The position numbers and the translations under genes are program-made. A DNA stretch of 64,000 bases from Asparagopsis taxiformis (Eukaryota; Rhodophyta; Florideophyceae; Bonnemaisoniales; Bonnemaisoniaceae). Below are positions 1,976 to 57,967 of the stretch, piece after piece (the stretch's first letter is position 1; each line of letters begins with the position of its first letter). The stretch lies in assembly GCA_030407315.1 (NCBI GenBank), contig JALQPE010002063.1, forward strand, positions 1-64,000, read 5' to 3'. The notes beneath the pieces are model-generated. The model was not told the origin of the DNA, made no database searches, and saw only the letters and a program-made list of their open reading frames with translations.

Positions 1976-2008
1976 CGTCTGTGTTCTCGGAAATGGACGC
2001 GGACGTCC
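1976..2008 (+). repeat. E1 left terminal inverted repeat
   Basis: It begins CGTCTGTGTTCTCGG and ends in ACGCGGACGTCC. Its reverse complement stands at 21713-21745, and the same sequence starts E2 at 36946. All three ends are flanked by or begin with CG. Confidence 0.75.
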
Positions 2009-2225
2009 ACAACCTCTAGTACACCTAGTATTACTAGGCGGACGTCCATGGTCCAGTATTTTTGGATGTCCGCCTAGACCGGACGTCCATGCGGTCTAGT
2101 ACGTCTAGTATTACTAGGACGACATTCATTGTTTCTAGTACCAACGGATGTCCTCTCGGGATGGACTCCACCATGTCTATGTCCGCCTAGGACTGGGCGC
2201 CGGTTCAGAAATTCAAAAATTTCGA
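2009..2225. repeat. Subterminal repeat region of E1 (left)
   Basis: Short motifs recur here in both orientations: GGACGTCC, CTAGTATTACTAGG, GTCCGCCTAG and TCTAGTA. Dense subterminal repeats are typical of CACTA-superfamily ends, where transposase binds. E2 lacks this segment: its homology to E1 stops at the equivalent of about 2225. Confidence 0.6.
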
Positions 2226-3429
2226 CCCCAGAAATTTTCTGCCGCCGTGCTCGACATGGGATGTCCGCATCCATCACGGCGACCACTCTAATTTTCCTTG
2301 TCGGTCGACTCCAATTTCGTCTTTAATTTTTCATCCTCTCGCTCACACCCCTTCCTGTTGGTGCTCACCTCCCCCGTACTGTACCTCAAACACCCCCAAT
2401 ACCACTCTAGCGCGCATTTTCAGCTACCTGTCCCCGCTTCCACGGTGCACACCTCCATTCCATACCTACTTTTCGGCTTTACCGTACAGATTTCGTATAA
2501 CCAGTCCTCATACTACCTCAGAATAAGGAAAAACACCCCTAACTCCTCGACCATGCTCTCCCCCATCACCTTTGCAACGTATTGTTCTTCAATACTCTCC
2601 TCCTCTACCTTCAACCCCTCTCCTTCGCCCTCTCCACAAACTTCCCCTGCAGCTTACTCTTCGAAAACCTCTCACCCCATCCCGTGCCCGACCTGCTCCA
2701 TCCCCTCCCTCCCTCAGCTGCTCCATGCCCCCCACGCCATCCGCATCTTAGATACCGTATACAGCACCACCACCGGCCCACACTCCCGCTCCCCCGCCGT
2801 CTCCTCAGAAACATCCTCTCTCTGAGCCACATATCAACTTGATAAGGGTTGAACCCCCCACTTCGCACCCTTCCTCCCACTCCCCTCCCTCCCCAGCGTT
2901 CTCTAATCCCCATAATATGCTCGTCAGCCACTCCTCTCCGAATCACATTCCAGTCTAAACCCGCACTCCGTACATTTCCACCTCCCCCTGTACCATCCAA
3001 GATTCCATCCAACCCCCCCTACAGAACACATCCTCATACCAAAGAAGAATTTTTCTTCCTCCCATACATCATCCTAAAACCTCCATCAGCTCCATGTAAA
3101 TTTCGATGTAAATATTTTCTCCACTATGCAATCTCAAACATGTATGAGCGTATGCCTTTCCGCTTTGTCAACCCGAATATTGTATTCATGTATCATAAAA
3201 TAGGGCCACCCACATCCCTATCCCGTTCTGCAAGCTTTACAAACCACCAGACGCATACTCCACAACTATACAACAACACTACTCGCTATTTCAGACGACG
3301 CGGTACACAAGTAGCATAGGCTATGCTACTTGTGTACCGCGTTGTCTGAGACTGAGTCTCAACCTTCCGTGACGCCTTCCCTGATGCGTACAAGTGCGAA
3401 ACACGTCTAGACGTATATCAGAAGTGAGT
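2226..3429. other. Element end region without an intact gene; possible zinc-finger remnant on -
   Basis: This matches E2 56600-57967 in reverse complement. The + strand is strongly pyrimidine-rich from about 2330 to 3240. On the - strand around 2915-2985 a short Cys-rich reading (KCTECGF, then ECDSER) resembles part of a C2H2 finger, but a stop follows at once; the E2 copy reads a little further (SADKHIMG). The long open frames here are low-complexity and not conserved between the copies. I support no working gene. Confidence 0.4.
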
Positions 3430-6180
3430 GCGGGAATTTTCGGCACAGGAGATGCTGGGCCACCAAATTGATTTTTCGGAAATTTTAGAATTTCTGGGCT
3501 GGCCAGCAACGCAATCGAGCTGGACATCCACCGGACGTCCATTTCAGGTTGGTCGTGGAGAGTGGGGCGGGACCATGATGAAACAAGGACCAAGACTTTC
3601 CCTGACGTATTGAGCCTGAAATCGACCCTTCGTGAGACGCCATTTGGCTTACAGTTGGTGCTTATAGAAGCCAGTGATAGCCCCGATCGGGGCGGTGGCC
3701 GGTTCCGGCTTACAGTTGGTGCTTACAGACGCCAGTGATAGCCCCCGATCGGGGCCGGCGGTCGGTTCCTGGGGCCGTTGTGGCCAAATTAGACACCTGA
3801 TTTGAATTAAAATTTGGGCTATTCTCAAAAACATGCACATGTGAACATGTTTTTGAGATGGGGGTGTGCCGTAAGGCACAATCGACCCGCCCAAATCGTT
3901 GATTTTTTACAATTTTTTGTGCCCGAAATTTTAGAATTTCTGGGCTGGCCAGCAATGCATCTGAGCTCGACATCCACCGGACCTCCATTTCAGGTTGGTC
4001 GTGAGAGAGTGAGGCGGGACCATGATGGAACAAGGACCAAGACCTGTCCCTGGCGTATTGAGCCTGAAATCGACCCGTCGTGAGACGCCATTTAGCCTAC
4101 AGCTAGTGCTTACAGAAGGCCAGTGACACCCCACTCGGGGCGGCGGCCGGTGCCTGGGGCCGTTCTGGCCAAATTAGACACCTTGATTTGAATTAAAATT
4201 TGGGCTATTCTCAAAAACATGCACATGTGAACAGTGTTTTTGAGATGGGGGTGTGCCGTACGGCACAATCGACCGCCCAAATCGTTGATTTTTGCAAGAT
4301 TTTTTGTGCCCGAAATTGTAGAATTTCTGGGCTGGCCAGCAATGCATCTGAGCTGGACATCCACCGGACGTCCATTTCAGGTTGATCGTGTGCTGCCTAC
4401 ATCCACGCATTGCAGTAACTAAGCAGGCGGGATCACTACTAATATAAAGTGCACGGAATATGAGTAACGTGATGGGTGAGTAGTGTTTGTGTTGAGGGAG
4501 TAAGGCGGGACCATTATGAAAACACGAAGAAGATGCGTACTAGCATAACTTAGGCTTGAAGCCTGGAATCGACCCATCTTTCGGCGCCATTTAGCCTTAC
4601 AGTTAGTGCTTACAGAAGCTAGTGATGACCCCGCTCGGGGCGGCGGCTCCGGTTCCTGGGGCCGTTGTGGCCAAATTAGACACCCTGATTTGAATTAAAT
4701 TTGGGCTATTCTCAAAAACATGCACATGTGAACATGTTTTTTGAGATGGGGGTGTGCCGTACGGCACAATCGACCCGCCCAAATCGTTGATTTTTGCAAG
4801 ATTTTTTTTGCCCGAAATTTTAGAATTTCTGGGCTGGCCAGCAATGCATCTGAGCTCGACATCCACCGGACGTCCATTTCAGGTTGGTCGTGAGACAGTG
4901 AGGCGGGACCATGATGGAACAAGGACCAAGACCTGTCCCTGACGTGTTGAGCCTGAAATCGACCCGTCGTGAGACGCCATTTAGCCTTACAGTTAGTGCT
5001 TACAGAAGCCAGTGACAACCCCACTCGGGGCGGCGGCCGGTGCCTGGGGCCCGTTCGTGGCCAAATTAGACACCTTGATTTGAATTAAAATTTGGGCTAT
5101 TCTCAAAAAACATGCACATGTGAACATGTTTTGAGATGGGGTGTGCCGTACGGCACAATCGACCCGCCCAAATCGTTGATTTTTGCAAGATTTTTTTGCC
5201 CGAAATTGTAGAATTTCTGGGCTGGCCAGCAATGCATCTGAGCTGGACATCCACCGGACGTCCATTTCAGGTTGATCGTGTGCTGCCTACATCCACGCAT
5301 TGCAGTAACTAAGCAGGCGGGATCACTACTAATATAAAGTGCACGGAATATGAGTAACGTGATGGGTGAGTAGTGTTTGTGTTGAGGGAGTAAGGCGGGA
5401 CCATTATGAAACACGGAAGAAGATGCGTACCTAGCATAACTTAGGCTTGAAGCCGGGAATCGACCCATCTTTCGGCGCCATTTAGCCTCACAGTTAGTGC
5501 TTACAGAAGCCAGTGATGACCCGCTCGGGGCGGCGGCTCCGGTTCCTGGGGCCGTTGTGGCCAAATTAGACGTCCTGATTTGAATTAAAATTTGGGCTAT
5601 TCTCAAAAACATGCACATGTGAACATGTTTTTGAGATGGGGGTGTGCCGTACGGCACAATCGACCCGCCCAAATCGATGATTTTTTACAATTTTTTTGTG
5701 CCCGAAATTTTAGAATTTCTGGGCTGGCCAGCAATGCATCTGAGCTCGACATCCACCGGACGTCCATTTCAGGTTGGTCGTGAGAGAGTGAGGCGGGACC
5801 ATGATGGAACAAGGACCAAGACCTGTCCCTGGCGTATTGAGCCTGAAATCGACCCGTCGTGAGACGCCATTTAGCCTTACAGTTAGTGCTTACAGAAGCC
5901 AGTGACAACCCCACTCGGGGCGGCGGCCGGTTCCTGGGGCCGTTGTGGCCAAATTAGACACCCTGATTTGAATTAAAATTTGGGCTATTCTCAAAAACAT
6001 GCACATGTGAACATGTTTTTGAGATGGGGGTGTGCCGTACGGCACAATCCACCCGCTGAAATCGATGTTTTTTGCAATATTTTTTTGTGCCCGAAATTGT
6101 AGAATTTCTGGGCTGGCCAGCAATGCATCTGAGCTGGACATCCACCGGACGTCCATTTCAGGTTGATCGTGTATCGTGCA
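3430..6180. repeat. Higher-order satellite built from the element's hairpin module
   Basis: The hairpin CTCAAAAACATG...CATGTTTTTGAG recurs at about 3824, 4210, 4711, 5102, 5602 and 5990. Spacing alternates near 390 and 500 bases, giving a higher-order period of about 890. Each unit also holds TGCCGTACGGCA, GAAATTxTAGAATTTC and GGACGTCC. The longer units add a segment found again at 10945-11080. E2 has only about one and a half units at the matching place (55998-56560), so the array expanded in E1. Open frames starting MGYSQKHAHVN come from the repeat and are not genes. Confidence 0.85.
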
Positions 6181-6439
6181 CGTCCACACATTACCGGAAG
6201 CAAGTAGGCGATGAAGCACGTACATACCCAATTGTTCTGCTATTTCTAGCATAGACCATCGAGTCTAGAGATGTGAGGGAATCGTCCTGGAAATCATGCT
6301 CCAACCCACGAGGGAATGGACAATCTAGTTTGAAAGCATGGAACGGAAGTACATTATACTAGGTTCATAGATTGGAAGTGATAAAGGAGATGATTATATT
6401 CTCGATAATTGTTTACCAAAGTAGTAGTTGTTAAGCTAT
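6181..6439. other. 3' flank of the ParB-dioxygenase gene
   Basis: This is non-coding sequence between the satellite and the gene's stop codon. It is conserved in E2 (55754-55990). I see no distinct signal apart from AT-rich runs that could include a polyadenylation region. Confidence 0.4.
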
Positions 6440-9400
6440 CTAGCCGTCGGAAAATTCTTCTTCGTCTTCGTCCTCACTATATTCAGGATCTCCCGGCAGA
6501 ATAGGCGTTATCGGCAACTGTGGAGTTGATCTGCTCAAGATGAATTCTTCACCCGGTGTGAGGGTTCTCTTCTTGGGAGCTTCTGTCGTCTTCATCCGCA
6601 TGATTCCGAGCTGCCCTGTCTTCGGCCTACGATCTTTCTTGACCGGGATGGGAACAACTGTCTTGTGGCGAACATTGACAGGTGCCGGTTGACTTTGCCT
6701 GGCAGACCGGCGCGGAGCATTGGGGATTACTTCTTCTTCGAATCCCAACCGCCTGATGAAACCAAACGAAACATTGTCGGGAATCGGATACGACGCATTC
6801 CTGAAATACGTGTGATACCTCGTTGTCGTGTGTGACACAACTCTGTCGACATGCCCTGCCCCGGCATGTTGTACATAGCCGTGACCGATGAAGACTGAAC
6901 GTGGCGGAACGATTACCTTCTTCAGCTTCATCGTCTTGGCGTACATATCTAATTCCAGCGCTTTGGAAAAGACGTACTTGTGGGACCCTGGACACACCCA
7001 GATAGGGAATGGGTCATCTCCGTTGGCAATAACAAAGTAACCCGGAAGTTGATCTTTGCGGTCGCGAGGAGGAACAGGGAAATCATTGTGTGGGACCTGC
7101 CGAGGACACCCCTTTCCCGTTATCAAAAACCGTCCCCCAGATGCCGGCATGACAAGTTTTTCTCCCGGTAAACCGCACTCCTCCAGCCCTATCAGCCGGA
7201 CAAGGATTCCCAACCACACATCCAGCAGGGCTCGCCGCGTCACAAACTTGAACCGGTCGATATGCGTCTCATCGTTCTCGGCATAGTCAACCAGGCAGTG
7301 GCGCGTAGACGTGAAGCGAGCCCTCCCCTCATTCCGGTTCTTCTCATCTGTTTCATCGTCCCCAGTATTGACAATGGGACTCCACAGCTGCCGGTTCCCA
7401 GGGTCCTTGTGCACCTCCCCCCCTCCCACGTTCCCAAAAAGTACCGAAACAATTCCTGGATAGGAATTTCTTCCATGAGACCCAAGTCAAATGGGAACTT
7501 GTCCGACGCATCGAGGTAGCTTACATCCGCGAAATTGTGCATCACCGTATACCCTCGCTCGTTGATTTCCGTTCGGCAATTGTGGAAGTACGCCATACCA
7601 GTGCCGGCCTCATACGAATCCTTCCAGCTTGTAGACATTCGCGCAACCTGGGCGAAGTCCAGCCTCGAGGGTAGAAACGTCGATGTAGGCTCACACATCG
7701 CCTTGGCAGCCATCTTCCACGCTGCGAAGAACATCGGATAGACGTGATCGATCTCGAATAGCACACGAGCCCGATGTTGTTCCGGAATATGCAGCCCCTC
7801 AAACACAGGGTCCATCGCCACTTGCTTCAAATACCTCACCTCTCTGCCCTCCTCATCGATTTCCACACTCTCCAATAACAACCTGAGCTCAATCGGGGGC
7901 AGACAACCAACCCTCACCGATGCGATGACGTCCGCGGGACGCTGCGCCAGATGATGCCCTTCAGCTCGGTCTTTGACTTCGAAATCGTCGGGAAGAGATG
8001 GCATCCGGTCGTCGAACAGGAGGTCGTGTTCAGAAGGAGAGTCACGAACGATGTAACCGTCTTCATCGACTTCGACTCCTTCCGGACCAGTGAGTGTAAT
8101 TGTCACTTCGCGGACCCCCTTGCTTTCGACTTGGCCCTCGTCTGCACTGTTGTTTTCTTCCTCGTCCGAAACGCTATGGACAGATTCTTGGTTGGAGGGA
8201 GTCGCACCAGCACGTTGGTTATCTTGGGGGACAATCTCAACGGCAGAATCGGGGGAACGGGCGGAGTCTTCGTCAACCTCATCACCGGAAGCAGTGGCTT
8301 GTTGTTGATCGGTGGGTTTATCAACAACGGCCTGCTCTTCTTCCCCGGCGGATTGTTGTACCACAACCGGCTCTTCTTCCTCGAGGCGTGTGCTCCCCGT
8401 CGAGCGAAGTCGCTGTGAACGGCGGCGGATGCCATGCGAAGCAGGCTCATGTTCGACATTCCGCTGCTTCTTGTGAGTGAGTCTCACATTGGCAGCAGAA
8501 GGGCGGCGTTTGCGTCGAGCCTTAGTCTTCTTCTTCAATGTCGGATTGAAAAACTCTTTCAAGTTCGTTTCCAAATCCTGTAAACGCGTGGTTCTCCGTC
8601 GCATTCGAACCTCACTGCTCCGGTCGTCCCCTCTATACATTGCAATGGCATTGGTGAGATGCCATTGCAACTCCTTCGGCTGCTTAACCGACCCAATTGC
8701 CATCTCTGTGCTCAGAAATGACTTGCGCATAATACTCTTTGGGCGCCCATACGCAGCGTACAGAGAATTTGCTATTGCAGTCACGCGACGGACGTATGTA
8801 TAGAAGTCGTTCACGTCAAAGCGTCCATCCGGACGTCCACCATGAGCAGGGTTCAAGTACTCCGAAAGACCACGCAAGACGAAGACAAAGTTTTCTTCCA
8901 GCAACTCGCGCACTATCTTGTGGTCCAGGTGCGTTATCCCAATCTCGTTGCGGCGCTCGGAATTGTTCAGCTCACGCAACACTTCGTCGAGAACAGGATG
9001 CTTCAGCGTTGCTATAGCCAAACGCGTCCACCGCCGGGCCGTGTTCGTTGAATTCATCATCCCCATGAACTGCGCCTCGAACAATGTTCGGATGACATCA
9101 GACTCACGCAAGTCGCCAGCGTTTTCCACGTTATTTGCAACAGCAATCGTACGGATGAACTGCTGGATGGACGACAAGATTCGAACCAGGGAGCGCTCCG
9201 TCAGTTGCGTCCCAGTCGTATGGTTCGACTCTGCACTCTTGTGGATGATCTCATGAGGCTGAAGATCACTGTCGTCCTTGCGGCGAAGGTAGTACACATC
9301 CAGAGGCTGAGTAACCCAGCGCAAGCGGTTTGCGTCCTGTGGCAGCTTGGTTCTGTGCATACGGGTGAGGCGCGTGAAGTCATCGGCAATGCTATGCATA

Positions 9401-10392
9401 GCATTGAGACGATGCAGTCCGTCGATCACGGTCACGTTCGCATTGGCATGGAATTTGCCATTCTGGAACAGACGCGTGTCGGCGGGCAGATGCGTGTTCT
9501 GCGACCTCAGCACCGTCACAGTGATACGCGAAGAGCTCACATACCCCACAGCCAACATATTGTTGCGCAGGTCCTCCACGTGGTCTTCTTTCACATCCCG
9601 AAGGGTCACGGCCGGTTCCACTAGCTGCCTCACCAGCACAGTCGCTCCTTCTCCGACGTAATCCGACGTCACAAACTTGGGCACCGTAATTTGCGTCCCC
9701 TGCTGCTCACGAATGCTTTCCGCCACCTCCGGTTCGTCGTCCACTTCGGTTACGTCCTGCGTAGTAGCTTCGGTGACGTTGGAGCGAGCAGGGTGCTTCG
9801 TGCCTCCACTGGAGGGTCTTGCAGAGCGAGCAGGGCGCTTCGTGCCTCCCGAAACCGGGACGGAGCGTGCTGGATGCTTCGTACCCCCCGAACCAGTGAT
9901 TTCGCCTGCCGGACCGGTACTGGGCATCCGTCCCGAGCTGGCCTGGTTCGTCGCTGCGTTGAAGTTTGACGCTGCAGCAGGGGTACGAATGTCGCTAGGG
10001 CCATCCTCCGCAGCGGGGCGCATCATCCGAGTATCCCAAGGGTAAAACGCCGCGGCGTATGCTCCACCCATCGTCTCCGGCGGTCCCTCGGCGCCATCAA
10101 ACATGTACGGGAACGGGAGGTCCTTGAACTTGTCCTTAGTCGCAATGTTGCGCACGACGATGTAGTCGGCCTCGTCGGTTTCCGGCAGCTTGTGGTTGTG
10201 CAGCGTGCGCGGAAGGCCAACATCGCCACCAGCAGTGCTCACCGAAGCCGTCCCAATATGCACAGCCGCACCGTCCACGTCCGCAAACAAATTGACATCG
10301 ACGCCGCGCTTGAGTCCGCGCGACTCCGCTGACGCGCTCACTTGATCGCCGCAAACCGTTGAAAACAAACTGCTGAAATGCGTATCCGCCAT
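6440..10392 (-). pseudogene. ParB-like domain + Fe(II)/2-oxoglutarate dioxygenase fusion, one frameshift (E1 copy)
   Basis: The start is the ATG at 10392 (MADTHFSS) in a CCACC-like context on the coding strand; an in-frame upstream ATG at 10512 is less likely. Read to 6440 it would be about 1318 codons. Order of parts: a low-complexity N-terminus with three GGTK(H/R)PARS repeats near residues 168-204; a ParB-like domain at about 240-340 with IDGLHRLNAM; a helical region; a basic, NLS-like stretch and an acidic linker; then a C-terminal dioxygenase core with HND, CPGSHK and QHAGAG. A one-base change in a G/A-rich run near 7414-7427 breaks the frame before the dioxygenase core, while the C-terminus stays open to 6440. 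The E2 copy is intact at that point but broken near its own 3' end. Confidence 0.8.
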
Positions 10393-10669
10393 GATTGTTG
10401 AGTTGGAAAGTAAAAGAGATGGTTGACGTTGACGTATTCGAGTGATGTGGATGGTAGGTTTCACGTTGCTTGAAGAATGGTCGTGAACGCCAATCGCTGG
10501 AAATAATAACACAATACAACCGAAATTTTGTTAGGTACACACCTATCGTGACCGCTGGAATGCAAGACAGGCAATCGAGATGTGAGTGTCCGTTCGGAAC
10601 GGGCCCGAGTCGGGCTCTCGAAACCTGACGAGGTGGCGTGAAGCAGGCAGTGTCCTTGATGTGTAATGT

Positions 10670-10737
10670 GTTAAAATTACAGCTGTCAAGCTAGGCGGCT
10701 TTTGGGGCGGCTGCGAGCACCCCTTTATCCGGGGAAC
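10670..10737 (-). promoter_or_regulatory. Shared upstream box of the ParB-dioxygenase gene
   Basis: On the - strand this reads CCGGATAAAGGGGTGCTCGC, then GCCTAGCTTGACAGCTG and TAATT. A close variant lies at 16975-17030 upstream of the coiled-coil gene. It sits about 280 bases before the ATG. A shared promoter is inference. Confidence 0.45.
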
Positions 10738-11780
10738 ACCCTGATTTGAGTTAAAATTTGGGCTATTCTCAAAAACATGCACATGTGAACATGTTTTTGA
10801 GATGGGGGTGTGCCGTACGGCACAATCGACCCGCCCAAATCGTTGATTTTTGCAAGATTTTTTGTGCCCGAAATTTTAGAATTTCTGGGCTGGCCAGCAG
10901 TGCAATCGAGCTGGACATCCACCGGACGTCCATTTCAGGTTGATCGTGTGCTGCCTACATCCACGCATTGCAGTAACTAAGCAGGCGGGATCACTACTAA
11001 TATAAAGTGCACGGAATATGAGTAACGTGATGGGTGAGTAGTGTTTGTGTTGAGGGAGTAAGGCGGGACCATTATGAAACACGGAAGAAGATGCGTACCT
11101 AGCATAACTTAGGCTTGAAGCCTGGAATCGACCCATCTTTCGGCGCCATTTAGCCTCACAGTTAGTGCTTACAGAAGCCAGTGATGACCCCGCTCGGGGC
11201 GGCGGCTCCGGTTCCTGGGGCCGTTGTGGCCAAATTAGACGTCCTGATTTGAATTAAAATTTGGGCTATTCTCAAAAACATGCACATGTGAACATGTTTT
11301 TGAGATGGGGGTGTGCCGTACGGCACAATCGACCCGCCCAAATCGATGATTTTTTACAATTTTTTTGTGCCCGAAATTTTAGAATTTCTGGGCTGGCCAG
11401 CAGTGCAATCGAGCTGGACATCCACCGGACCTCCATTTCAGGTTGGTCGTGAGAGAGTGAGGCGGGACCATGATGGAACAAGGACCAAGACCTGTCCCTG
11501 GCGTATTGAGCCTGAAATTGACCCTTCGTCAGACGCCATTTAGCCTTACAGTTGGTGCTTACAGAAGCCAGTGACAACCCCACTCGGGCGGCGGCCGGTG
11601 CCTGGGGCCGTTCTGGCCAAATTAGACACCTTGATTTGAATTAAATTTGGGCTATTCTCAAAAACATGCACATGTGAACATGTTTTGAGATGGGGGTGTG
11701 CCGTACGGCACTTTCGACCGCCTAAATCGATAAAATTTTGCAATTTTTTTCCTGCCCGAAATTCTACAAGTTCTGGGCTG
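10738..11780. repeat. Three hairpin modules upstream of the ParB-dioxygenase gene
   Basis: Hairpin cores lie at about 10771, 11274 and 11657, each followed by TGCCGTACGGCA and the GAAATTxTAGAATTTC and GGACGTCC boxes, the last one partial. The module nearest the gene ends about 350 bases before its ATG. The array matches E2 50430-51462 in reverse complement. Confidence 0.8.
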
Positions 11781-12282
11781 GCCAGTAATGCATTAGCTAT
11801 CTCCTCTAAACCGATTCTAACAAGCAGAAAGAATCCTCTCCTTCATGACGATGCTCTCCATCGTCTTTTCGAAGCCATTTCCGTACGAAAAAATCGAAAA
11901 ACATATTTGACTTTAACCTAACAGCTATCGCGAGCACCGTACTCAGCTATATTTCCTCTGTAATTTCCTTCCTCCAACCAATCAATAGCCGCTTGGTCAC
12001 AGGCTTAAAAGCCTTCCACTATCTGTCCTATCCATCGAAGACCCTCGGAGGGTTCGATCCAGGCCTTGATCACCCATGATGGGTGTGCAACCCGAGAAAA
12101 TGAAAATGGAACATATTGCCACAGGGACGAGATATCATTCCATGAAAGAGAACTTCTCTTTCGTTTACTTTTTTCTAACAAGATTCTAAACGTCTACAAA
12201 CCCTATGTCGTCCGTCCGTTTTCATCCCGGAGAGATGTGGATGTGAGGTAAGACGCAGTGGTGATGTTGTGTTGATTCCCAC
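11781..12282. other. Spacer between divergent genes, no gene seen
   Basis: This is unique-looking sequence shared with E2 (about 49900-50430), with small insertions in each copy. It contains CCCATGATGGG and GAGAACTTCTCT palindromes. No conserved open frame was found. Confidence 0.4.
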
Positions 12283-13010: not shown

Positions 13011-13064
13011 GTGGCCGTCCGGATGTCGCTCACCTGGTAAGCGTGATGCACCTGTGACAACCTA

Positions 13065-16970: not shown

Positions 16971-16974
16971 CTTC

Positions 16975-48764: not shown

Positions 48765-49022
48765 AATGGAATGAGTGGAAATTCGGTACAGGATGGCGAC
48801 CGCTCGGCGAGACAGTCAAATTTGACGACGTATCTCGTGACGTTTGCACTCTTTCGTGAGGAACACTGGTTGATATCGAACGGAACAGAGTATACGGGTA
48901 CACAGCACTGGAAAGGTCTTGAAACCCGTAACCGGTGTAGGTAATAAGTTGTGACGGATACGTGGTAGAGAAAAATTTTAAAAAGATTGTGATTCCCTGT
49001 CTTTGAGTGTTGTACTGCACGG

Positions 49023-49295
49023 CCGCCATGGCGGCTGTGACTGCAGTCACATAGGTTGTCACAGGTGCATCACGCTTACCAGGTGAGCGACATCCGGACG
49101 GCCACTGGACATGGGGATGTCCAGCTCAGATGCATTGCTGGCCAGACCAGAAATTCTACAATTTCGGGCAGAAAAAATATTGCAAAAAACATCGATTTCG
49201 GCGGTCGATTGTGCCGTACGGCACACCCCCATCTCAAAAACATGTTCACATGTGCATGTTTTTGAGAATAGCCCAAATTTTAATTCAAATCAGGA
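49023..49295 (-). promoter_or_regulatory. Palindromes and hairpin module upstream of the E2 methyltransferase-SET gene
   Basis: This has the paired palindromes GCCGCCATGGCGGC and GTGACTGCAGTCAC (about 49023-49052) and one hairpin module (about 49110-49295), mirroring E1 12826-13094. Confidence 0.5.
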
Positions 49296-49589
49296 TGCAG
49301 ATATTCGTCTTCTAGCATTGTCAGAACACATTCGTATAACCACATTTGGAGAACCTGAGCCCAGAGCTATCGGTTTTGGCGGGAGCTAAGCCATATCTCA
49401 TATAATCAGTAACTACTTCCCGCCAGCTGAGTGGTGGAACCCCTGCTATTTCTACCAACGAGACATACGGGGTGTCAACTCGGCAATCGTATATGATTTG
49501 GGTGCTAAATTTATTCAAGAGACGAATGGGCTTCGAAAAGGAGCCCAACAACGTCTTCTTGTGATCCATGGGTATAGGACTACTCTATT
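49296..49589. other. Spacer, no gene seen
   Basis: This matches E1 12546-12825. The 82-codon frame on - (MDHKKTLLGSFSKPIRLL) is identical in both copies, but the DNA is equally conserved around it, so that is no evidence for coding. Confidence 0.3.
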
Positions 49590-49890
49590 CTTCTCCAGGC
49601 TTCCACCATAGCCTCCTCCACCTCCGTTAATGGAAAGAATATCCGAACCGCACCTCAACATGTTTTCTTCTCATCCATGGGTACTGACATCTCACATGTT
49701 CTCCAGGCTTCCACCATAGCCTCCTCCACCTCCGTTAATGGAACAATATCCGAACCGGACCTGAACATGTTTTTCTTCTCATCCATGGGTACTGACATCT
49801 CACATGTTCTCACATGTGAGATGTCAGTACCGGAGAAGTTCTCCAGGCTTCCTCCGTAGCCACCTCCTCCACCTCCGTCTGTGGGAATCA
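49590..49890. repeat. CCTCCTCCACCTCCG tandem repeat
   Basis: It is the complement of the repeat at 12283-12545 with a different number and order of units; TCATCCATGGGTACTGACAT and TCTCACATGT recur. Confidence 0.55.
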
Positions 49891-50429
49891 ACACAACATC
49901 ACCACTGCGTCTTACCTCACATCCACATCTCTCCGGGATGAAAACGGACGGACGACATAGGGTTTGTAGACGTTTAGAATCTTGTTAGAAAAAAGTAAAC
50001 GAAAGAGAACTTCTCTTTCATTGAATGATATCTCGTCCCTGTCGCAATATGTTCCATTTTCATTTTCTCGGGTTGCACACCCATCATGGGTGATCAAGGC
50101 CTGGATCGAACCCTCCGAGGGTCTTCGATGGATAGGACAGATAGTGGAAGGCTTTTAAGCCTGTGACCAAGCGGCTATTGATTGGTTGGAGGAAGGAAAT
50201 TACAGAGGAAATATAGCTGAGTACGGTGCTCGCGATAGCTGTTAGGTTAAAGTCAAATATGTTTTTCGATTATTTTTCGTACGGAAATGCCTTGGAAAAG
50301 ACGATGCTTTGTCGTTCTCTTGGAGGGAGTCCGTTGCATTGCACTCAATTCGAGAGCATCGTCATGAAGGAGAGGATTCTTTCTGCTTGTTAGAATCGGT
50401 TTAGAGCAGATAGCTAATGCATTACTGGC

Positions 50430-51462
50430 CAGCCCAGAAATTGTAGAATTTCGGGCAGCAAAAATATTGTAAAAAACCTTGATTTCAGCGGTCGATTGTG
50501 CCGTACGGCACACCCCCATCTCAAAAACATGTTCACATGTGCATGTTTTTGAGAATAGCCCAAATTTTAATTCAAATCAGGGTGTCTAATTTGGCCACAA
50601 CGGCCCCAGGCACCGGCCGCCGCCCCGAGTGGGGTTGTCACTGGCTTCTGTAAGCACTAACTGTAAGGCTAAATGGCGTCTACGAAGGGTCAATTTCAGG
50701 CTCAATACGCCAGGGACAGGTCTTGGTCCTTGTTCCATCATGGTCCCACCCACTCTCTCACGACCAACCTGAAATGGACGTCCGGTGGATGTCCAGCTCG
50801 ATTGCACTGCTGGCCAGCCCAGAAATTCTAAAATTTCGGGCACAAAAAAATTGTAAATTTGGGCGGGTCGATTGTGCCGTACGGCACACCCCCATCTCAA
50901 AAACATGTTCACATGTGCATGTTTTTGAGAATAGCCCAAATTTTAATTCAAATCAGGGTGTCTAATTTGGCCACAACGGCCCCAGGAACCGGCCGCCGCC
51001 CCGAGCGGGGTCATCACTGGCTTCTGTAAGCACTAACTGTGAGGCTAAATGGCGCCGAAAGATGGGTCGATTCCAGGCTTCAAGCCTAAGTTATGCTAGG
51101 CATCTTCTTCCGTGTTTCATCATGGTCCCGCCTTACTCCCTCAACACAAACACTACTCACCCATCACGTTACTCATATTCCGTGCACTTTATATTAGTAG
51201 TGAACCCGCCTGCTTAGTTGCTGCAATGCGTGGATGTAGGCAGCACACGACCAACCTGAAATGGACGTCCGGTGGATGTCCAGCTCAGATGCACTGCTGG
51301 CCAGCCCAGAAATTCTAAAATTTCGGGCACAAAAAATCTTGCAAAAATCAACGATTTGGGCGGGTCGATTGTGCCGTACGGCACACCCCCATCTCAAAAA
51401 CATGTTCACATGTGCATGTTTTTGAGAATAGCCCAAATTTTAACTCAAATCAGGGTGTTCCC
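50430..51462. repeat. Three hairpin modules upstream of the E2 ParB-dioxygenase gene
   Basis: Hairpin cores lie at about 50520, 50899 and 51398, with the usual TGCCGTACGGCA and GGACGTCC boxes. It is the complement of E1 10738-11780. Confidence 0.8.
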
Positions 51463-51797
51463 CGGATAAAGGGGTGCTCGCAGCCGCCCCAAAAGCCGCC
51501 TAGCTTGACAGCTGTAATTTTAACACATTACACATCAAGGACACTGCCTGCTTCACGCCACCTCGTCAGGTTTCGAGAGCCCGACTCGGGCCCGTTCCGA
51601 ACGGACACTCACATCTCGATTGCCTGTCTTGCATTCCAGCGGTCACGATAGGTGTGTACCTAACAAAATTTCGGTTGTATTGTGTTATTATTTCCAGCGA
51701 TTGGCGTTCACGACCATTCTTCAACGTGAAACATACCATCCACATCACTCGAATACGTCAACGTCAACCATCTCTTTTCCTTTCCAACTCAACAACC
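51463..51797 (+). promoter_or_regulatory. Promoter-side region of the ParB-dioxygenase gene (E2)
   Basis: This contains CCGGATAAAGGGGTGCTCGC and CTAGCTTGACAGCTGTAATT about 290-330 bases before the ATG. It is conserved in all three copies of the gene, including the pseudogene at the window start. Confidence 0.45.
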
Positions 51798-54700
51798 ATG
51801 GCGGATACGCATTTCAGCAGTTTGTTTTCAACGGTTTGCGGCGATCAAGTGAGCGCGTCAGCGGAGTCGCGCGGACTCAAGCGCGGCGTCGATGTCAATT
51901 TGTTTGCGGACGTGGACGGTGCGGCTGTGCATATTGGGACGGCTTCGGTGAGCACTGCTGGTGGCGATGTTGGCCTTCCGCGCACGCTGCACAACCACAA
52001 GCTGCCGGAAACCGACGAGGCGGACTATATCGTCGTGCGCAACATTGCGACTAAGGACAAGTTCAAGGACCTCCCGTTCCCGTACATGTTTGATGGCGCC
52101 GAGGGACCGCCGGAGACGATGGGTGGAGCATACGCCGCGGCGTTTTACCCTTGGGATACTCGGATGATGCGCCCCGCTGCGGAGGATGGCCCTAGCGACA
52201 TTCGTACCCCTGCTGCAGCGTCAAACTTCAACGCAGCGACGAACCAGGCCAGCTCGGGACGGATGCCCAGTACCGGTCCAGCAGGCGAAATCACTGGTTC
52301 GGGGGGTACGAAGCATCCAGCACGCTCCGTTCCGGTTTCGGGAGGCACGAAGCGCCCTGCTCGCTCTGCAAGACCCTCCAGTGGAGGCACGAAGCACCCT
52401 GCTCGCTCCAACGTCACCGAAGCTACTACGCAGGACGTAACCGAGGTGGACGACGAACCGGAGGTGGCGGAAAGCATTCGTGAGCAGCAGGGGACGCAAA
52501 TTACGGTGCCCAAGTTTGTGACGTCGGATTACGTCGGAGAAGGAGCGACTGTGTTGGTGAGGCAGCTAGTGGAACCGGCCGTGACCCTTCGGGATGTGAA
52601 AGAAGACCACGTGGAGGACCTGCGCAACAATATGTTGGCTGTGGGGTATGTGAGCTCTTCGCGTATCACTGTGACGGTGCTGAGGTCGCAGAACACGCAT
52701 CTGCCCGCCGACACGCGTCTGTTCCAGAATGGCAAATTCCATGCCAATGCGAACGTGACCGTGATCGACGGACTGCATCGTCTCAATGCTATGCATAGCA
52801 TTGCCGATGACTTCACGCGCCTCACCCGTATGCACAGAACCAAGCTGCCACAGGACGCAAACCGCTTGCGCTGGGTTACTCAGCCTCTGGATGTGTACTA
52901 CCTTCGCCGCAAGGACGACAGTGATCTTCAGCCTCATGAGATCATCCACAAGAGTGCAGAGTCGAACCATACGACTGGGACGCAACTGACGGAGCGCTCC
53001 CTGGTTCGAATCTTGTCGTCCATCCAGCAGTTCATCCGTACGATTGCTGTTGCAAATAACGTGGAAAACGCTGGCGACTTGCGTGAGTCTGATGTCATCC
53101 GAACATTGTTCGAGGCGCAGTTCATGGGGATGATGAATTCAACGAACACGGCCCGGCGGTGGACGCGTTTGGCTATAGCAACGCTGAAGCATCCTGTTCT
53201 CGACGAAGTGTTGCGTGAGCTGAACAATTCCGAGCGCCGCAACGAGATTGGGATAACGCACCTGGACCACAAGATAGTGCGCGAGTTGCTGGAAGAAAAC
53301 TTTGTCTTCGTCTTGCGTGGTCTTTCGGAGTACTTGAACCCTGCTCATGGTGGACGTCCGGATGGACGCTTTGACGTGAACGACTTCTATACATACGTCC
53401 GTCGCGTGACTGCAATAGCAAATTCTCTGTACGCTGCGTTTGGGCGCCCAAAGAGTATTATGCGCAAGTCATTTCTGAGCACAGAGATGGCAATTGGGTC
53501 GGTTAAGCAGCCGAAGGAGTTGCAATGGCATCTCACCAATGCCATTGCAATGTATAGAGGGGACGACCGGAGCAGTGAGGTTCGAATGCGACGGAGAACC
53601 ACGCGTTTACAGGATTTGGAAACGAACTTGAAAGAGTTTTTCAATCCGACATTGAAGAAGAAGACTAAGGCTCGACGCAAACGCCGCCCTTCTGCTGCCA
53701 ATGTGAGACTCACTCACAAGAAGCAGCGGAATGTCGAACATGAGCCTGCTTCGCATGGCATCCGCCGCCGTTCACAGCGACTTCGCTCGACGGGGAGCAC
53801 ACGCCTCGAGGAAGAAGAGCCGGTTGTGGTACAACAATCCGCCGGGGAAGAAGAGCAGGCCGTTGTTGATAAACCCACCGATCAACAACAAGCCACTGCT
53901 TCCGGTGATGAGGTTGACGAAGACTCCGCCCGTTCCCCCGATTCTGCCGTTGAGATTGTCCCCCAAGATAACCAACGTGCTGGTGCGACTCCCTCCAACC
54001 AAGAATCTGTCCATACCGCTTCGGACGAGGAAGACAAACAGGGTGCAGACGAGGGCCAAGTCGAAAGCAAGGGGGTCCGCGAAGTGACAATTACATTCAC
54101 TGTTCCGGAAGGAGTGGAAGTCGATGAAGACGGTTACATCGTTCGTGACTCTCCTTCTGAACACGACCTCCTGTTCGACGACCGTATGCCATCTCTTCCT
54201 GACGATTTCGAAGTCAAAGACCGAGCCGAAGGGCATCATCTGGCGCAGCGTCCCGCGGACGTCATCGCATCGGTGAGGGTTGGCTGTCTGCCCCCGATTG
54301 AGCTCAGGTTGTTATTGGAGAGTGTGGAAATCGATGAGGAGGGCAGAGAGGTGAGGTATTTGAAGCAAGTGGCGATGGACCCTGTGTTTGAGGGGCTGCA
54401 TATTCCGGAACAACATCGGGCTCGTCATCTTGTTTTCGAGATCGACACCATCTATCCGATGTTTTTCGCAGCGTGGAAGATGGCTGCCAAGGCGATGTGT
54501 GAGCCTACATCGACGTTTCTACCCTCGAGGCTGGACTTCGCCCAGGTTGCGCGAATGTCTACAAGCTGGAAGGATTCGTATGAGGCCGGCACTGGTATGG
54601 CGTACTTCCACAATTGCCGAACGGAAATCAACGAGCGAGGGTATACGGTGATGCACAATTTCGCGGATGTAAGCTACCTCGATGCGTCGGACAAGTTCCC

Positions 54701-55753
54701 ATTTGACTTGGGTCTCATGGAAGAAATTCCTAACCAGGAATTGTTTCGGTACTTTTTGGGAACGTGGGAGGGGGAGGAGGTGCACAAGGACCCTGGGAAC
54801 CGGCAGCTGTGGAGTCCCATTGTCAATACGGGGGACGATGAAACAGATGAGAAGAACCGGAATGAGGGGAGGGCTCGCTTCACGTCTACGCGCCACTGCC
54901 TGGTTGACTATGCCGAGAACGATGAGACGCATATCGACCGGTTCAAGTTTGTGACGCGGCGAGCCCTGCTGGATGTGTGGTTGGGAATCCTTGTCCGGCT
55001 GATAGGGCTGGAGGAGTGCGGTTTACCGGGAGAAAAACTTGTCATGCCGGCATCTGGGGGACGGTTTTTGATAACGGGAAAGGGGTGTCCTCGGCAGGTC
55101 CCACACAATGATTTCCCTGTTCCTCCTCGCGACCGCAAAGATCAACTTCCGGGTTACTTTGTTATTGCCAACGGAGATGACCCATTCCCTATCTGGGTGT
55201 GTCCAGGGTCCCACAAGTACGTCTTTTCCAAAGCGCTGGAATTAGATATGTACGCCAAGACGATGAAGCTGAAGAAGGTAATCGTTCCGCCACGTTCAGT
55301 CTTCATCGGTCACGGCCATGTACAACATGCCGGGGCAGGGCATGTCGACAGAGTTGTGTCACACACGACAACGAGGTATCACACGTATTTCAGGAATGCG
55401 TCGTATCCGATTCCCGACAATGTTTCGTTTGGTTTCATCAGGCGGTTGGGATTCGAAGAAGAAGTAATCCCAATGCTCCGCGCCGGTCTGCCAGGCAAAG
55501 TCAACCGGCACCTGTCAATGTTCGCCACAAGACAGTTGTTCCCATCCCGGTCAAGAAAGATCGTAGGCCGAAGACAGGGCAGCTCGGAATGATGCGGATG
55601 AAGACGACAGAACCTCGCAAGAGGAGAGCCCTCACACACGATGAACTATTAGTCTTGAGCTATTCAACTCCACAGTTGCCGATAACGCCTATTCTGCCGG
55701 GAGATCCTGAATATAGTGAGGACGAAGAGGAAGAACAATTTTCCGACGGCTAG
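51798..55753 (+). pseudogene. ParB-like domain + Fe(II)/2-oxoglutarate dioxygenase fusion, 3' frameshift (E2 copy)
   Basis: The start at 51798 (MADTHFSSLFSTV) follows AACAACC; the frame is also open from 51654. Residues 167-204 carry three GGTK(H/R)PARS repeats. Residues about 240-340 form a ParB-like domain (VEDLRNNMLAVG, VIDGLHRLNAMHS). A basic stretch (KKKTKARRKRRPS) and an acidic linker follow. The C-terminal double-stranded beta-helix has His1103-x-Asp1105 (PHNDFP), WVCPGSHK with His1139, a distal His1177 (VQHAGAG) and Arg1185 or Arg1193 for 2-oxoglutarate, close to the PhyH pattern. A missing C at 55469-55471 shifts the frame after the catalytic core; the native tail reads on to 55753. 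Because the break is behind the core, this copy may still encode an active enzyme. The substrate is unknown; a modified DNA base is a guess from the cargo context. Confidence 0.8.
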
Positions 55754-55997
55754 ATAGCTTAACAACAACTACTTTAGGAAACAATTATCGAGAATATAAT
55801 CATCTCCTTTATCACTTTCAATCTATGAACCTACTATAATGTACTTCCGTTCCATGCTTTCAAACTAGATTGTCCATTCCCTCGTGGGTTGGAGCATGAT
55901 TTCCAGGACGATTCCCTCACATCTCTAGACTCGATGGTCTATGCTAGAAATAGCAGAACAATTGGGTTTGTACGTGCTTCATCGCCTACTTGCTTCC

Positions 55998-56560
55998 GGT
56001 AATGGGTGGACGTGCACGATACACGATCAACCTGAAATGGACGTCCGGTGGATGTCCAGCTCAGATGCATTGCTGGCCAGCCCAGAAATTCTAAATTTCG
56101 GGCACAAAAAATATTGCAAAAAACATCGATTTGGGCGGTCGATTGTGCCGTACGGCACACCCCCATCTCAAAAACATGTTCACATGTGCATGTTTTTGAG
56201 AATAGCCCAAATTTTAATTCAAATCAGGGTGTCTAATTTGGCCACAACGGCCCCAGGAACCGACCGCCGGCCCCGATCGGGGGCTATCACTGGCGTCTGT
56301 AAGCACCAACTGTAAGCCGGATCCGGCCGCCGCCCCGATCGGGGCTATCACTGGCTTCTATAAGCACCAACTGTAAGCCAAAATCGCGTCTCACGACGGG
56401 TCGATTTCAGGCTCAATACGCCAGGGACAGGTCTTGGTCCTTGTTTCATCATGGTCCCGCCCCACTCTCTCACGACCAACCTGAAATGGACGTCCGGTGG
56501 ATGTCCAGCTCGATTGCACTGCTGGCCAGCCCAGAAATTCTAAAATTTCCGAAAAATCAA
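55998..56560. repeat. Hairpin module array downstream of the E2 ParB-dioxygenase gene
   Basis: One full module (hairpin at about 56165) and part of another. It corresponds to the ends of the expanded E1 array (3430-6180). Confidence 0.75.
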
Positions 56561-57967
56561 TTTGGTGGCCCAGCATCTCCTGTGCCGAAAATTCCCGCAG
56601 TCACTTCTGATATACTATATCGTAGTAGTAGTAGTAGTAGTCTAGACGTGTTTCGCACTTGTACGCATCAGGGAAGGCTGCACGGAAGGTTGAGACTACG
56701 CTACTTGTGTACCGCGTCGTCTGAAATAGCGAGTAGTGTTTGTTGTATAGTTGTGGAGTATGCGTCTAGTGGTTTGTAAAGCTTGCAGAACGGGATAGGG
56801 ATGTGGGTGGCCCTATTTTATGAATACATGAGTACCAATATTCAGGGTTGACAAAGCGGAAAGTCATAGGCTCATACATGTTTGAGATTGCATAGTGGAG
56901 AAAATATTTACATCGAAATTTACATGGAGCAGATGGAGGTTTTAAGGATGAGGTATGAGAGGAAGAAAATTCTTCTGTGGTATGAGGATGTGTTCTGTGG
57001 AGGGATGCAATCTTGGGATGGTACAGGGGGAGGTGGAAATGTACGGAGTGCGGGTTTAGAATGGAGTGTGATTCGGAGAGGAGTGCCGACAAGCATATTA
57101 TGGGGATTGGGGAGACGCTGCGGGGTGTTGGGGTAGTGAGGGCGGAGGAGGTGTTTAGGTGGGACCGTAGGAGGGTGCGGTTGAAGTCGCCGAGAGGAGG
57201 GGTTTTAGGAAAGTGAGGAGAAAGAGGGGGAGGGGTGGCGTCTGTTCTGGCTGTGGTGAGTGGGGATGTGATGGAGAAGAAGGGGGTTATTGTATTTGGG
57301 GAGGGAGGGGAGTGGGAGGAAGGGTGCGAAGTGGGGGGTTGATATGTGTTTCAGAGCGGGGAGGTTTCTGGGGAGACGGCGGGGGTGCCACCCCGCAGTG
57401 CGGGAGCGTGGGCCGGTGGTGGTGGTGTATACGGTATCGAAGATGCGGATGGCGTGGGGGCATGGAGCAGCTGAGGGAGGGAGGGGTGGAGCAGGTCGGG
57501 TACGGGATGGGGAGTGAGAGGTTTTGGAAGAGTAAGCTGCAGGGGAAGTTTGTGTAGAGGGCGAAGGAGAGGGGTTGAGGGTAGAGGAGAGAGGGTATTG
57601 AAGAACAATACGTTGCAAAGGTGTTGGGGGAGAGCATGGTCGAGGAGATAGGGGGTGTTTTTCCCTATTCTGAGGTAGTATGAGGACTGGTTATACGAAA
57701 TCTGTACGGTAGAGCAGAACAGTAGGTATGGAATGGAGGTGTGCACCGTGGAAGCGGGGATAGGTAGCTGAAAATGCGTGCTAGAGTGGTATTGGGGGTG
57801 TTTGAGGTACAGTACGGGGGAGGTGAGCACCAACTGGAAGGGGGTGTGAGCGAGAGGATGAAAAAATTAAAGACGAAATTGGAGTCGACCGACAAGGAAA
57901 AATAGAGTGGTCGCCGTGATGGATGCGGACATCCAAGTCGAGCACGGCGGCAGAAATTTCTGGGGTC
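56561..57967. other. Distal end region of E2; possible zinc-finger remnant, + strand purine-rich
   Basis: This matches E1 2226-3429 in reverse complement. A (GTA)n microsatellite lies at about 56624-56642. At about 57025-57105 on + the reading WKCTECGFRMECDSER with SADKHIMG resembles a C2H2 finger, and a short CSVEGC occurs in another frame just before. No intact gene. Element homology ends at 57967. Confidence 0.4.

Follow-up and report, generated by a model that had tools for sequence, protein, structure and literature searches.

Element copies and their genes

Self-comparison of the window, the whole stretch of 64,000 nucleotides analysed here, identified two inverted copies of one Plavaka-type DNA transposon, element A (1976-21746, plus strand, 19,771 bp) and element B (36945-57967, minus strand). 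The segment 12349-21196 matches 49745-40922 in inverted orientation at 99.2%, 5876-11858 matches 56316-50352 in the same way at 97.8%, and identity between A and B is 91% in the outer pieces (2224-4003). Element A has terminal inverted repeats at both ends, CGTCTGTGTTCTCGGAAATGGACGCGGACGTCCA at 1976-2009 (plus strand) and its inverted partner at 21713-21746 (minus strand). The 2 bp outside these ends differ (ta at one end, aa at the other), and A therefore does not count as a clean insertion. Element B has the same right terminus as A (36945-36978, plus strand) and stops at element position 252, at which a CACTA-type terminus begins (57968). Its left end lies beyond the nested CACTA element, and the left 252 bp are absent from the window. 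The CACTA termini of the window, at 33368 and 57968, belong to other elements; none was found on A, which ends in CGTCTG.

The transposase of B is encoded in two frames (39430-42550, plus strand; 39430-40722 and 40058-42550), with a Pfam Plavaka match in both. The B segment 37585-40922, which holds most of this gene, is missing from A, where self-comparison revealed a remnant of the C-terminal part (19563-20984, minus strand). In a copy elsewhere in the host genome, C52, the Plavaka domain scored 88.6 bits against a cut-off of 26.3 (PF18759, E 5.7e-25). A CHRC motif is present in the transposase ORF. A working transposase was not seen, because the gene lies in two frames in the copies read. 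The element termini, CGTCTG..CAGACG, are unlike those published for the fungal families PlavakaA (TGT..ACA) and PlavakaB (CATCA..TGATG) (PMC12730594). The original prediction described two inverted copies with common termini, a Plavaka/CACTA-like transposase and three cargo genes. The observation is confirmed, except that A lacks most of the transposase and B has one terminus in the window; the Plavaka assignment is firm, but CACTA termini are not on A.

The DNA methylase-SET gene of A is located at 13352-16540 (plus strand), with the methylase at 14852-15664 (DPPYN at 14870, DPFSGT at 15578) and the SET domain at 16067-16516. The corresponding gene of B (45573-48815, minus strand) is open. 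Pfam profile search placed both domains over their cut-offs (PF01555, E 2.9e-15; PF00856, E 1.1e-6, 29.5 bits against 22.4), bearing out the predicted fusion. In the beta class of DNA amino-methyltransferases, DPPY comes before the F-x-G SAM-binding motif. The methylase part has this order (Pfam N6_N4_Mtase), and its closest matches are the adenine-specific DpnA, CcrM, MboIIA and RsrI. From the DPPY motif and these relatives we infer that the target is adenine rather than cytosine, the predicted product being N6-methyladenine. Matches of the SET part to MLL, EZH2 and SETD8 chains are weak. The motifs of both domains are kept across 16 aligned sequences, 14 of them database rows from 68 relatives that were all picked for having both domains annotated, and N1006, D1007, E1066 and Y1071 (ND, ELxxxYG) are invariant.

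Between subfamilies, dN was 0.20 and dS 2.03 in the catalytic part, and 0.33 and 2.25 in the N-part, with dS saturated. The resulting dN/dS of about 0.1-0.15, to be read with this saturation, indicates purifying selection on the methylase-SET gene; the comparison of A with C52 (dS 0) is uninformative on selection, and an out-of-frame row for gene D of the second family (30% identity) was left out. Pattern search of IMG/VR with methylase-SET found a methylase fragment encoded in 3 of 67 stretches, and 4 of 29 stretches of the prokaryote scan matched, in the methylase part alone.

ORF1 of A (6443-10530, minus strand) is split by a frameshift. ORF1 of B, read from its Met, spans 51798-55592 (plus strand), with a ParB-like part at about 52566-52781 (IDGLHR) followed by H-x-D at 55104, PGSH at 55203, a distal His at about 55326 and an Arg at 55374. 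Its frame departs from that of A after 55472, indicating a frameshift near the B C-terminus. The predicted ParB part stands as a weak PHROG match (E 3.4e-4, residues 88-180 of P0069, the ORF1 protein of a second repeat family described below), but Pfam gave no match to a ParB family. The DGLHR motif is invariant in the four aligned ORF1-type rows.

The oxygenase proposed for ORF1 was not confirmed. Three of the four aligned proteins have the chain H-x-D...P(G/R)SH...H...R; the relative P0074 has HFAF where H-x-D is expected and so misses the Asp. No oxygenase was found by Pfam at E up to 10, where three weak matches appeared (best RCS1, E 0.053) and TET/JBP gave no match, or by PDB profile search, which returned one chance-like match (E 3.3). 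When hhalign was run against five PhyH-type PDB sequences, the GYxV segment alone aligned, with a probability of 2.8%. AlphaFold2 gave no usable fold for the second-family ORF1 (pLDDT 38; C-terminal part 34), and Foldseek found no match to the pLDDT-38 model at E <= 0.001. Judged by its motifs, the C-terminal domain is probably a 2-oxoglutarate/Fe(II) oxygenase. Sequence homologues of A's ORF1 were absent at E <= 0.001 among 7,987 candidates scored. The second-family protein had two among 5,713 candidates, and one of these, P0073, is identical over the 306/306 residues compared to the host genome's own second family. Pattern search of IMG/VR with ORF1 gave 0 of 50 stretches.

The third cargo gene is open in A (17200-19485, plus strand) and frameshifted into two overlapping ORFs in B (42628-45011, minus strand). 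Residues 272-336 of the A protein (about 17914-18108) have weak, below-cut-off matches to three families, which we take to be coiled-coil proteins; the remainder matched no family.

We also found a recurrent palindromic site, GTGCCGTACGGCAC. In A, it occurs 3' of ORF1 (4253-6045, plus strand; at 4253, 4754, 5143, 5644 and 6032, with a one-base variant at 3866), between ORF1 and methylase-SET (10810-12904, plus strand; at 10810, 11313, 11698 and 12891), and between methylase-SET and the third gene (16883-16896). The sites in A thus cluster beside and between genes, away from the termini. Six sites of this type are located in B (45216-56158; starts 45216, 49211, 50498, 50874, 51371 and 56145, converted from B coordinates). 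Across four copies, searching with the palindrome alone gave 31 matches, or 28 units after removal of 3 chance matches inside the third gene. The palindrome is perfect in 25 units and the adjoining 42 bp are identical in 24. An earlier, selected set, chosen by closeness to a 45-base pattern, held 22 units (20 distinct). Six of the 28 units are located in a cargo-free copy, which once moved, since it has a target duplication. A nearly invariant palindromic site between genes, retained without cargo, is new here.

Copies across the host genome and a second family

The 33-base terminal pattern occurs 2,435 times exactly (1,217 + 1,218) in the 141.5 Mb host genome, probably that of a red alga, and its reversed control 0 times. 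Marker counts were 953 for methylase-SET, 911 for ORF1 and 1,000 for the transposase, that is, around a thousand gene-bearing copies. The methylase and transposase markers lie at fixed spacing and orientation in 34 of the 67 exact matches listed (strand-flipped control 0/67), and the methylase and ORF1 markers in 25/67 (control 3/67). A terminus was found within 4 kb of its expected place for 22/27 ORF1, 30/38 transposase and 13/23 methylase matches listed, compared with 0, 2 and 1 in the flipped control. In the sample tested, the cargo genes therefore occupy fixed positions within the element. At full length, this Plavaka-group DNA transposon, present in high copy, measures about 20 kb. The many near-identical copies suggest recent activity.

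Ten terminus pairs were fetched from 12 candidate pairs, and in six of them the same 2 bp flank CGTCTG at both ends; the four pairs without a matching duplication may be mispaired ends. The sole full-length copy among the six duplication-supported pairs is C52:39208-59251, in which both ends, a TA target duplication and the complete set of four genes are present, though not every gene is open. In the other five, the ends are 10-12 kb apart and no gene marker is found among the matches listed; one of these (C14) was read over its full length. Copies without cargo are thus common, so an element can do without the cargo in cis. Of the three copies with genes that were read (A, B and C52), none has four open genes, and methylase-SET alone is open in each. 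The original prediction named a genome search by terminal repeats as the way to expose chance cargo. Such a search does show gene-less copies to be common, but the genes are not found mainly outside the element.

Furthermore, the pair of methylase-SET (adenine-type) and ORF1 (ParB-like, putative oxygenase) recurs, at 23-30% identity, in a second dispersed family of repeats that is distantly related to the first. Its methylase-SET in the window (28207-31854, minus strand) is about 30% identical to that of A and has one in-frame stop codon (30310-30312). The start of its ORF1 (32918-33367, plus strand; ParB motif YYIVDGLHRR) is divergent from the methylase-SET and is cut by the CACTA terminus at 33368. 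Between the two lies a 125-bp imperfect palindrome (32265-32389), 91% self-complementary. The palindromes of this family are its own, with the centre changed from CTGCAG to CTCGAG. The neighbouring genes D (plus strand, 5'-truncated at 24575) and F (minus strand), at 24575-27262, have no Pfam family over cut-off. The pair was found at C635, at C2057 and in this window, and in 7 of 16 listed rows of a 69% subfamily; 58 of the 64 methylase-SET matches listed are without a stop.

The termini of the second family were not found. The CACTA termini at C635 were rejected as its ends: the one near 17149 points away from the genes, and the window copy has an element of this type nested inside it. Position 24575 was also rejected, as it cuts gene D, with 4-bp microhomology. 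P0070, a transposase-like ORF near the second-family genes, was recognised by eye and has no Pfam or PDB match.

That the two genes recur together in another family, 23-30% identical, argues against chance cargo. Taken together, these data suggest that both kinds of element probably make use of methylase-SET and ORF1.

Proposed role of the gene pair

As a function, the 'epigenetic kit' of the original prediction is inferred. Our leading reading, to which we give a probability of roughly 45%, is that a Plavaka-group transposon uses the pair as a self-marking module. ORF1 would bind palindromic sites of the element itself through its ParB-like part and so deliver its C-terminal domain, a probable 2-oxoglutarate/Fe(II) oxygenase, to the DNA. 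On the same chromatin, methylase-SET would add a DNA mark (predicted N6-methyladenine) together with a mark on histone lysine. Such self-marking would most likely serve to counter silencing by the host, so that element copies remain expressed and mobile. TET/JBP genes on fungal transposons have been interpreted as anti-silencing, in an account of such elements (PMC12730594). The methylase plus SET could equally act as a silencing pair.

A wider form of the self-marking reading, possible but doubtful, is that two deeply diverged large-repeat families each have a code of their own, in which perhaps a tenth of the genome would be marked as 'self' and the palindrome would be parS-like. If true, this would be a transposon-encoded code made up of a site, a reader-eraser (the ParB-like oxygenase) and a single-chain dual writer of DNA and histone marks.

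It is unlikely, in our judgement, that the module is self-limiting, with methylase-SET writing repressive DNA and histone marks on the copies, so that less damage to the host would permit very many copies. The coexistence of more than 900 marker copies fits this, and in bdelloid rotifers an amino-methylase takes part in silencing together with H3K9 methylation (PMC8885841). Against this, the similarity of the SET part to MLL, EZH2 and SETD8 is weak, the adjoining second gene is perhaps a mark-changing or mark-removing oxygenase, and many copies are nearly identical, as expected if the element was active recently.

We give little credence to a role in transposition control, in which DNA methylation and the ParB-like protein would act at the termini and palindromic arrays, timing excision or pairing the ends. 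Adenine methylation gates some bacterial insertion sequences, and the nearly invariant palindromes are retained in a cargo-free copy with a target duplication. However, this would leave the SET domain without a role, and the sites of A gather beside and between genes rather than at the termini.

The chance is similarly small that the pair is maintained without ORF1 having an oxygenase at its C-terminus. This protein would then be a ParB-like DNA-binding regulator, of which En/Spm TnpA is a functional analogue, and methylase-SET the sole enzyme. Every fold and profile test of the C-terminal part failed and P0074 is without the Asp of H-x-D, but three of the four aligned proteins show the H-x-D, P(G/R)SH, distal His and Arg in this order, and the GYxV segment aligns, weakly, at the position it has in PhyH enzymes. 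Finally, host or viral genes captured once and amplified as passengers are very improbable: the common gene-less copies with the same termini show that the genes are not needed in cis, but the same adjacent pair recurs in the second family, dN/dS is about 0.1-0.15 (dS saturated), the catalytic motifs are kept and 58 of 64 listed second-family matches are without a stop.

Relation to known systems

En/Spm TnpA and VANDAL VANC are element-encoded DNA-binding proteins that reverse silencing via repeated sites. We know of no methylase or SET enzymes in En/Spm and VANDAL elements.

The original prediction knew of no description of this combination, a statement to be read with caution in view of the large multi-ORF EnSpm families reported from the red alga Chondrus, 16-20 kb long with 4-5 ORFs each (PMC6431247). 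Host group, size, gene number and transposon superfamily fit our element closely, in a comparison of the ORFs by number and not by identity, whereas the transposase of element A is of Plavaka type and its termini are CGTCTG instead of CACTA.

Fungal Plavaka, EnSpm, Zisupton and other transposons that carry TET/JBP are alike in their Plavaka type, 2-3-bp target duplications, accessory oxygenase (putative in our element) and proposed escape from silencing (PMC12730594). In contrast, the putative oxygenase here has no Pfam family and shares its chain with a ParB-like part, the element also encodes a DNA methylase-SET, and the termini differ. Phytophthora HarbingerS and MuDR transposons also have a SET histone methylase gene aboard (cited in PMC12730594), but the passages on them there mention no same-chain DNA methylase, and the transposase superfamilies differ.

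The Plavaka giant repeats of Amoebidium likewise combine a Plavaka transposase with intron-poor genes in large clusters, and some of their genes have red-algal matches, but the cargo described there is tyrosine recombinases (PMC11244446). Neither 'SET domain' nor 'ParB' occurs in the main text of that paper, and a Dam methyltransferase is named in adintovirus-like insertions of Amoebidium (PMC11244446). In bdelloid rotifers, N4CMT and amplified SETDB1 also couple a bacterial-type amino-methylase to histone methylation, but these are host genes that silence transposons, and the methylase is joined to a chromodomain and makes 4mC (PMC8885841). Here, the genes ride on the transposon, with methylase and SET in one chain.

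The hundreds of gene-bearing and cargo-free copies are natural replicates, which make a standing question testable, namely whether such genes protect, silence or time an element. The system also bears on whether one protein can jointly write DNA and histone marks. Transposons with one chromatin gene were already known; here, the DNA methylase and SET share a chain, and the partner gene is kept across two families.

Proteins encoded by the element

We found that the methylase-SET protein matched both PF01555 and PF00856 above cut-off, which bears out the fusion of a DNA methylase and a SET domain proposed in the original prediction. A profile built from the sequence alignment described below matched adenine-specific methylases best (DpnA 1.1e-13, CcrM 4.4e-8, MboIIA 8.2e-7, RsrI 2.9e-6), followed by MLL-, EZH2- and SETD8-type SET chains (1e-5 to 1e-3). 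A protein search returned 68 relatives, all but one at 25-37% identity; the database relative P0001 is 99% identical to the protein of copy A. Since precomputed annotation places PF01555 in all 68 and PF00856 also in 28 of them, the fusion, as annotated, has relatives beyond the A/B element. Among prokaryotes (84,980 species), 4 of the 29 pattern stretches encode a relative, and its similarity covers the methylase part only. We aligned 16 sequences, namely the two window families and 14 database relatives, picked from the 68 so as to have both domains annotated. Invariant in this alignment were the DPP of DPPYN, D760, G764 and T765 of the SAM-binding motif, and N1006, D1007, E1066 and Y1071 of the SET part.

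ORF1 had been described as a ParB-oxygenase fusion. In its ParB-like half, the N-terminal part, a DGLHR motif is invariant in four aligned proteins, and the second-family ORF1 has a weak match to a ParB family (E 3.4e-4, PHROGs). Along the C-terminal part, GYxV, H-x-D, P(G/R)SH, H-A/S-G and R follow one another as they do in phytanoyl-CoA-type oxygenases, and this family motif was also visible in the oxygenase sequences compared. AlphaFold2 models, Pfam/PDB profile searches and hhalign gave no oxygenase fold for this part, leaving the oxygenase half with its motifs; our guess, somewhat better than even, is a putative oxygenase. The second-family-type protein P0074 has HFAF where other ORF1 proteins have H-x-D, an exchange of Asp for Ala. 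The same replacement is found in some halogenases of the oxygenase fold, or in dead enzymes. Second-family ORF1 proteins (P0069 = L097:4480-8106; P0073, P0074) share a conserved Cys/His-rich segment, CxLGxxC...HKCTxC...VHNLC...CSRxCYDG, which is missing from A's ORF1; it looks zinc-binding and had no Pfam match above cut-off.

The third gene, predicted to encode a coiled-coil cargo protein, gave weak matches, below cut-off, to the coiled-coil proteins NET2A, Spc29 and Wtap. One more weak match over the same stretch came from PHROGs (E 0.0027).

Copies A and B and nested insertions

Element A (1976-21746, + strand) has both termini, and element B (36945-57967, - strand) has one. The match between the inverted copies spans nearly their whole length. 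Identity is 97.8 and 99.2% in the two longest pieces but 91% in the outer one, and A is without 3.3 kb of the transposase region present in B. Two long inverted copies are thus confirmed, and the terminal repeats said to be common to both hold for A and for one end of B. B stops at element position 252, where the terminus CACTACGGTGTTG starts, and in other copies the sequence goes on after GGGGTC, the same in B, as GAAATTTTTG. Therefore, B was probably once complete and later struck by another transposon.

CACTA-type left ends (CACTACGGTGTTG, 35-bp subterminal arrays) lie at 33368-36944 and 57968-64000, one inserted in the second family's ORF1 after GTG and the other in B after GTC; the window's transposons are nested several deep. 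Positions 1-1975 are a piece of another ORF1 of the A/B element, matching A and B at about 96.7%, and the left end of A sits within it; contig C1936 (L023) has an almost identical 30-base flank. Among the 40 matches listed, just two other places (C221, C811) have the stretch 21747-24578 in full, and C1549 and C11 have part of it, without the second-family gene D. In the window it adjoins the truncated gene D with an overlap of 4 bp (GCAG), resembling end-joining repair. ORF E (35747-37018), beside the nested CACTA-type terminus, has a basic N-terminus, continues into B at 36945 and had no Pfam match up to E 0.1. Crowded direct and inverted repeats at 61716-63420, close to a CACTA terminus, also occur in C635.

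Copies with and without cargo in the assembly

We searched the assembly (141.5 Mb, 3,156 contigs), in which one PsbO gene was found, its matched part free of stop or break, and the ribosomal protein L3 gene is a single exon. The closest PDB relative of PsbO is 7y5e (Porphyridium, 413 bits), ahead of the cryptophyte entries 8xr6 and 8wb4 (382) and of 4yuu (Cyanidium, 367); the host would therefore be an alga with a plastid of red type, most likely a red alga. The PDB relatives of L3 gave no placement. The exact 33-base terminus occurs 1,217 times forward and 1,218 times reverse (control 0). For 36-base gene markers, allowing 2 mismatches at most, there were 953 methylase, 911 ORF1 and 1,000 transposase N-part matches (controls 0). 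We estimate that gene-bearing copies make up ~19 Mb, 13% of the assembly, if most are near full length. Contig C221 holds a near-identical second copy of part of the window locus. The assembly may hold both haplotypes, and thus copies per haploid genome may be fewer.

Gene position was evaluated among the matches listed (67 methylase, 93 ORF1, 99 transposase and, in contigs up to C100, 100 terminus), roughly the first 100 exact ones for each; misses include contig ends and neighbours that carry a mismatch and so fall outside the list. In 34 of the 67 methylase matches the transposase marker followed downstream in the same orientation, at a distance of 6,676-6,875 bp (strand-flipped control 0/67), ORF1 lay upstream within 3 kb of its expected place in 25 (control 3/67), and both were found in 16. 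A terminus lay within 4 kb of its expected place for 22/27 ORF1, 30/38 transposase and 13/23 methylase matches listed (flipped control 0, 2 and 1).

Outer ends were identical among copies at different sites. The places listed gave 12 neighbouring terminus pairs, and sequence was examined for 10. In 6 of these 10, the 2 bp outside CGTCTG..CAGACG were equal on both sides (AA, TG, AT, GA, TA, TT), against a chance of 1 in 16. One of the six is full length (C52:39208-59251, 20,044 bp, TA), and encodes ORF1 (1,268 codons, its frame departing from B's ahead of the final Arg motif), a methylase-SET of 1,084 codons, a third gene of 713 and a transposase in two frames. The latter matched Pfam Plavaka (E 5.7e-25), as predicted for the transposase. 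The remaining five span 10.0-11.7 kb without any listed gene marker; one copy read whole, C14:6193-17321 (11,129 bp, TG), has the same ends and no ORF of 200 codons. This copy (L095-L096) is a cargo-free derivative with duplicated inverted inner arms. A 10-12 kb spacing was seen in 7 of the 12 pairs, and all but one of the seven showed no listed gene marker. With five of the six duplication-supported pairs lacking a marker, cargo-free copies are therefore common. Of the two signs of chance cargo named in the original prediction, this one was seen; the other, genes lying mainly outside such elements, was not, and many listed gene copies lie at their expected places in the element.

Second family, palindromic sites and proposed mechanism

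The second-family methylase-SET (28207-31854) is about 30% identical to A's over the catalytic parts. Among 64 matches listed, 48 were at 92-100% (the window's own counted) and 16 at 69%, with no stop in 58. Since termini of this family were looked for and none found, its status as a transposon is inferred from dispersal. The start of its ORF1, ParB motif included (32918-33367), is divergent from methylase-SET and cut at 33368 by the CACTA terminus; C2057, of the same subfamily as the window's copy, has ORF1 and methylase-SET side by side. In C635, a 69% copy adjoins an ORF1 relative (C-terminal part 27.8% identity, E 1.2e-18; ParB part 22.8%, E 4e-4), and 7 of the 16 listed 69% matches had an ORF1 match ending 2.5-2.7 kb upstream on the same strand (38 candidates scored). 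The two genes are divergent in A and in the window's second-family copy (C), and tandem in C635. Between the two subfamilies, dN/dS was 0.204/2.03 in the catalytic part and 0.335/2.25 in the N-terminal part of methylase-SET, where dS is saturated and the ratios are rough, and 0.173/0.904 in gene F. P0070, a large ORF that adjoins ORF1 in C635, had no Pfam or PDB match; judged by eye, it shows a CACTA-type transposase pattern (DYPA...GHNA..CPCHLC).

Repeats beside and between the genes of A each contain a 14-bp palindrome, GTGCCGTACGGCAC. With this palindrome as the sole query and up to 2 changes allowed, we found 28 units (A 11, B 6, C52 5, C14 6); three further hits, in the third gene, are due to chance. 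The palindrome is perfect in 25 units, and 24 share an identical 42-bp block immediately left of it; this block has 12-bp inverted arms, CTCAAAAACATG and CATGTTTTTGAG, flanking CACATGTGAA, then ATGGGGGT. In the four other units these arms recur with insertions or deletions of 1-2 bases. Among 20 distinct units, a selected set, identity was 1.00 in the block and dropped to 0.5-0.6 beyond about 200 bp. Neither 26 kb of C635 nor the window at 21747-36944 and 57968-64000 contains the perfect palindrome. Palindromes of 122-128 bp, peculiar to the second family, flank its methylase-SET; in C635 they contain a perfect 30-bp palindrome around TTACTGCAGTAA, and the window's copy has CTCGAG at the centre, palindromic still. 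Identity among units proves little alone, because they are related by recent duplication, and the site argument comes from how the units differ from their flanks and from the symmetric centre change in the second family. The sites of both families look like those of a dimeric DNA-binding protein. ORF1 would be the natural candidate binder, as ParB is for the palindromic parS.

The original prediction held that this combination had no earlier description. We found no methylase-SET fusion or ParB gene on a transposon among the titles and abstract beginnings listed from open-licence PMC papers; such elements may already be in a Repbase report on Chondrus mentioned in passages of PMC6431247. Repbase listed 1,181 families from Chondrus, according to a table in PMC4455052.

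Judging from the anatomy, the transposase would move the element via its termini. The ORF1/methylase-SET pair may act on the element's own chromatin through the palindromic sites, and the most likely outcome would be escape from silencing, for which TET/JBP on fungal transposons is a precedent in passages of PMC12730594. The element shows no CpG depletion (observed/expected 0.97). In many protists, 6mA accompanies transcriptionally permissive chromatin, often with H3K4me3 (passages of PMC12695648), a pattern that would suit a 6mA-plus-histone writer as an activator. The protist 6mA, however, comes from AMT1, an enzyme of the MT-A70 type, and not from the family of methylase-SET.
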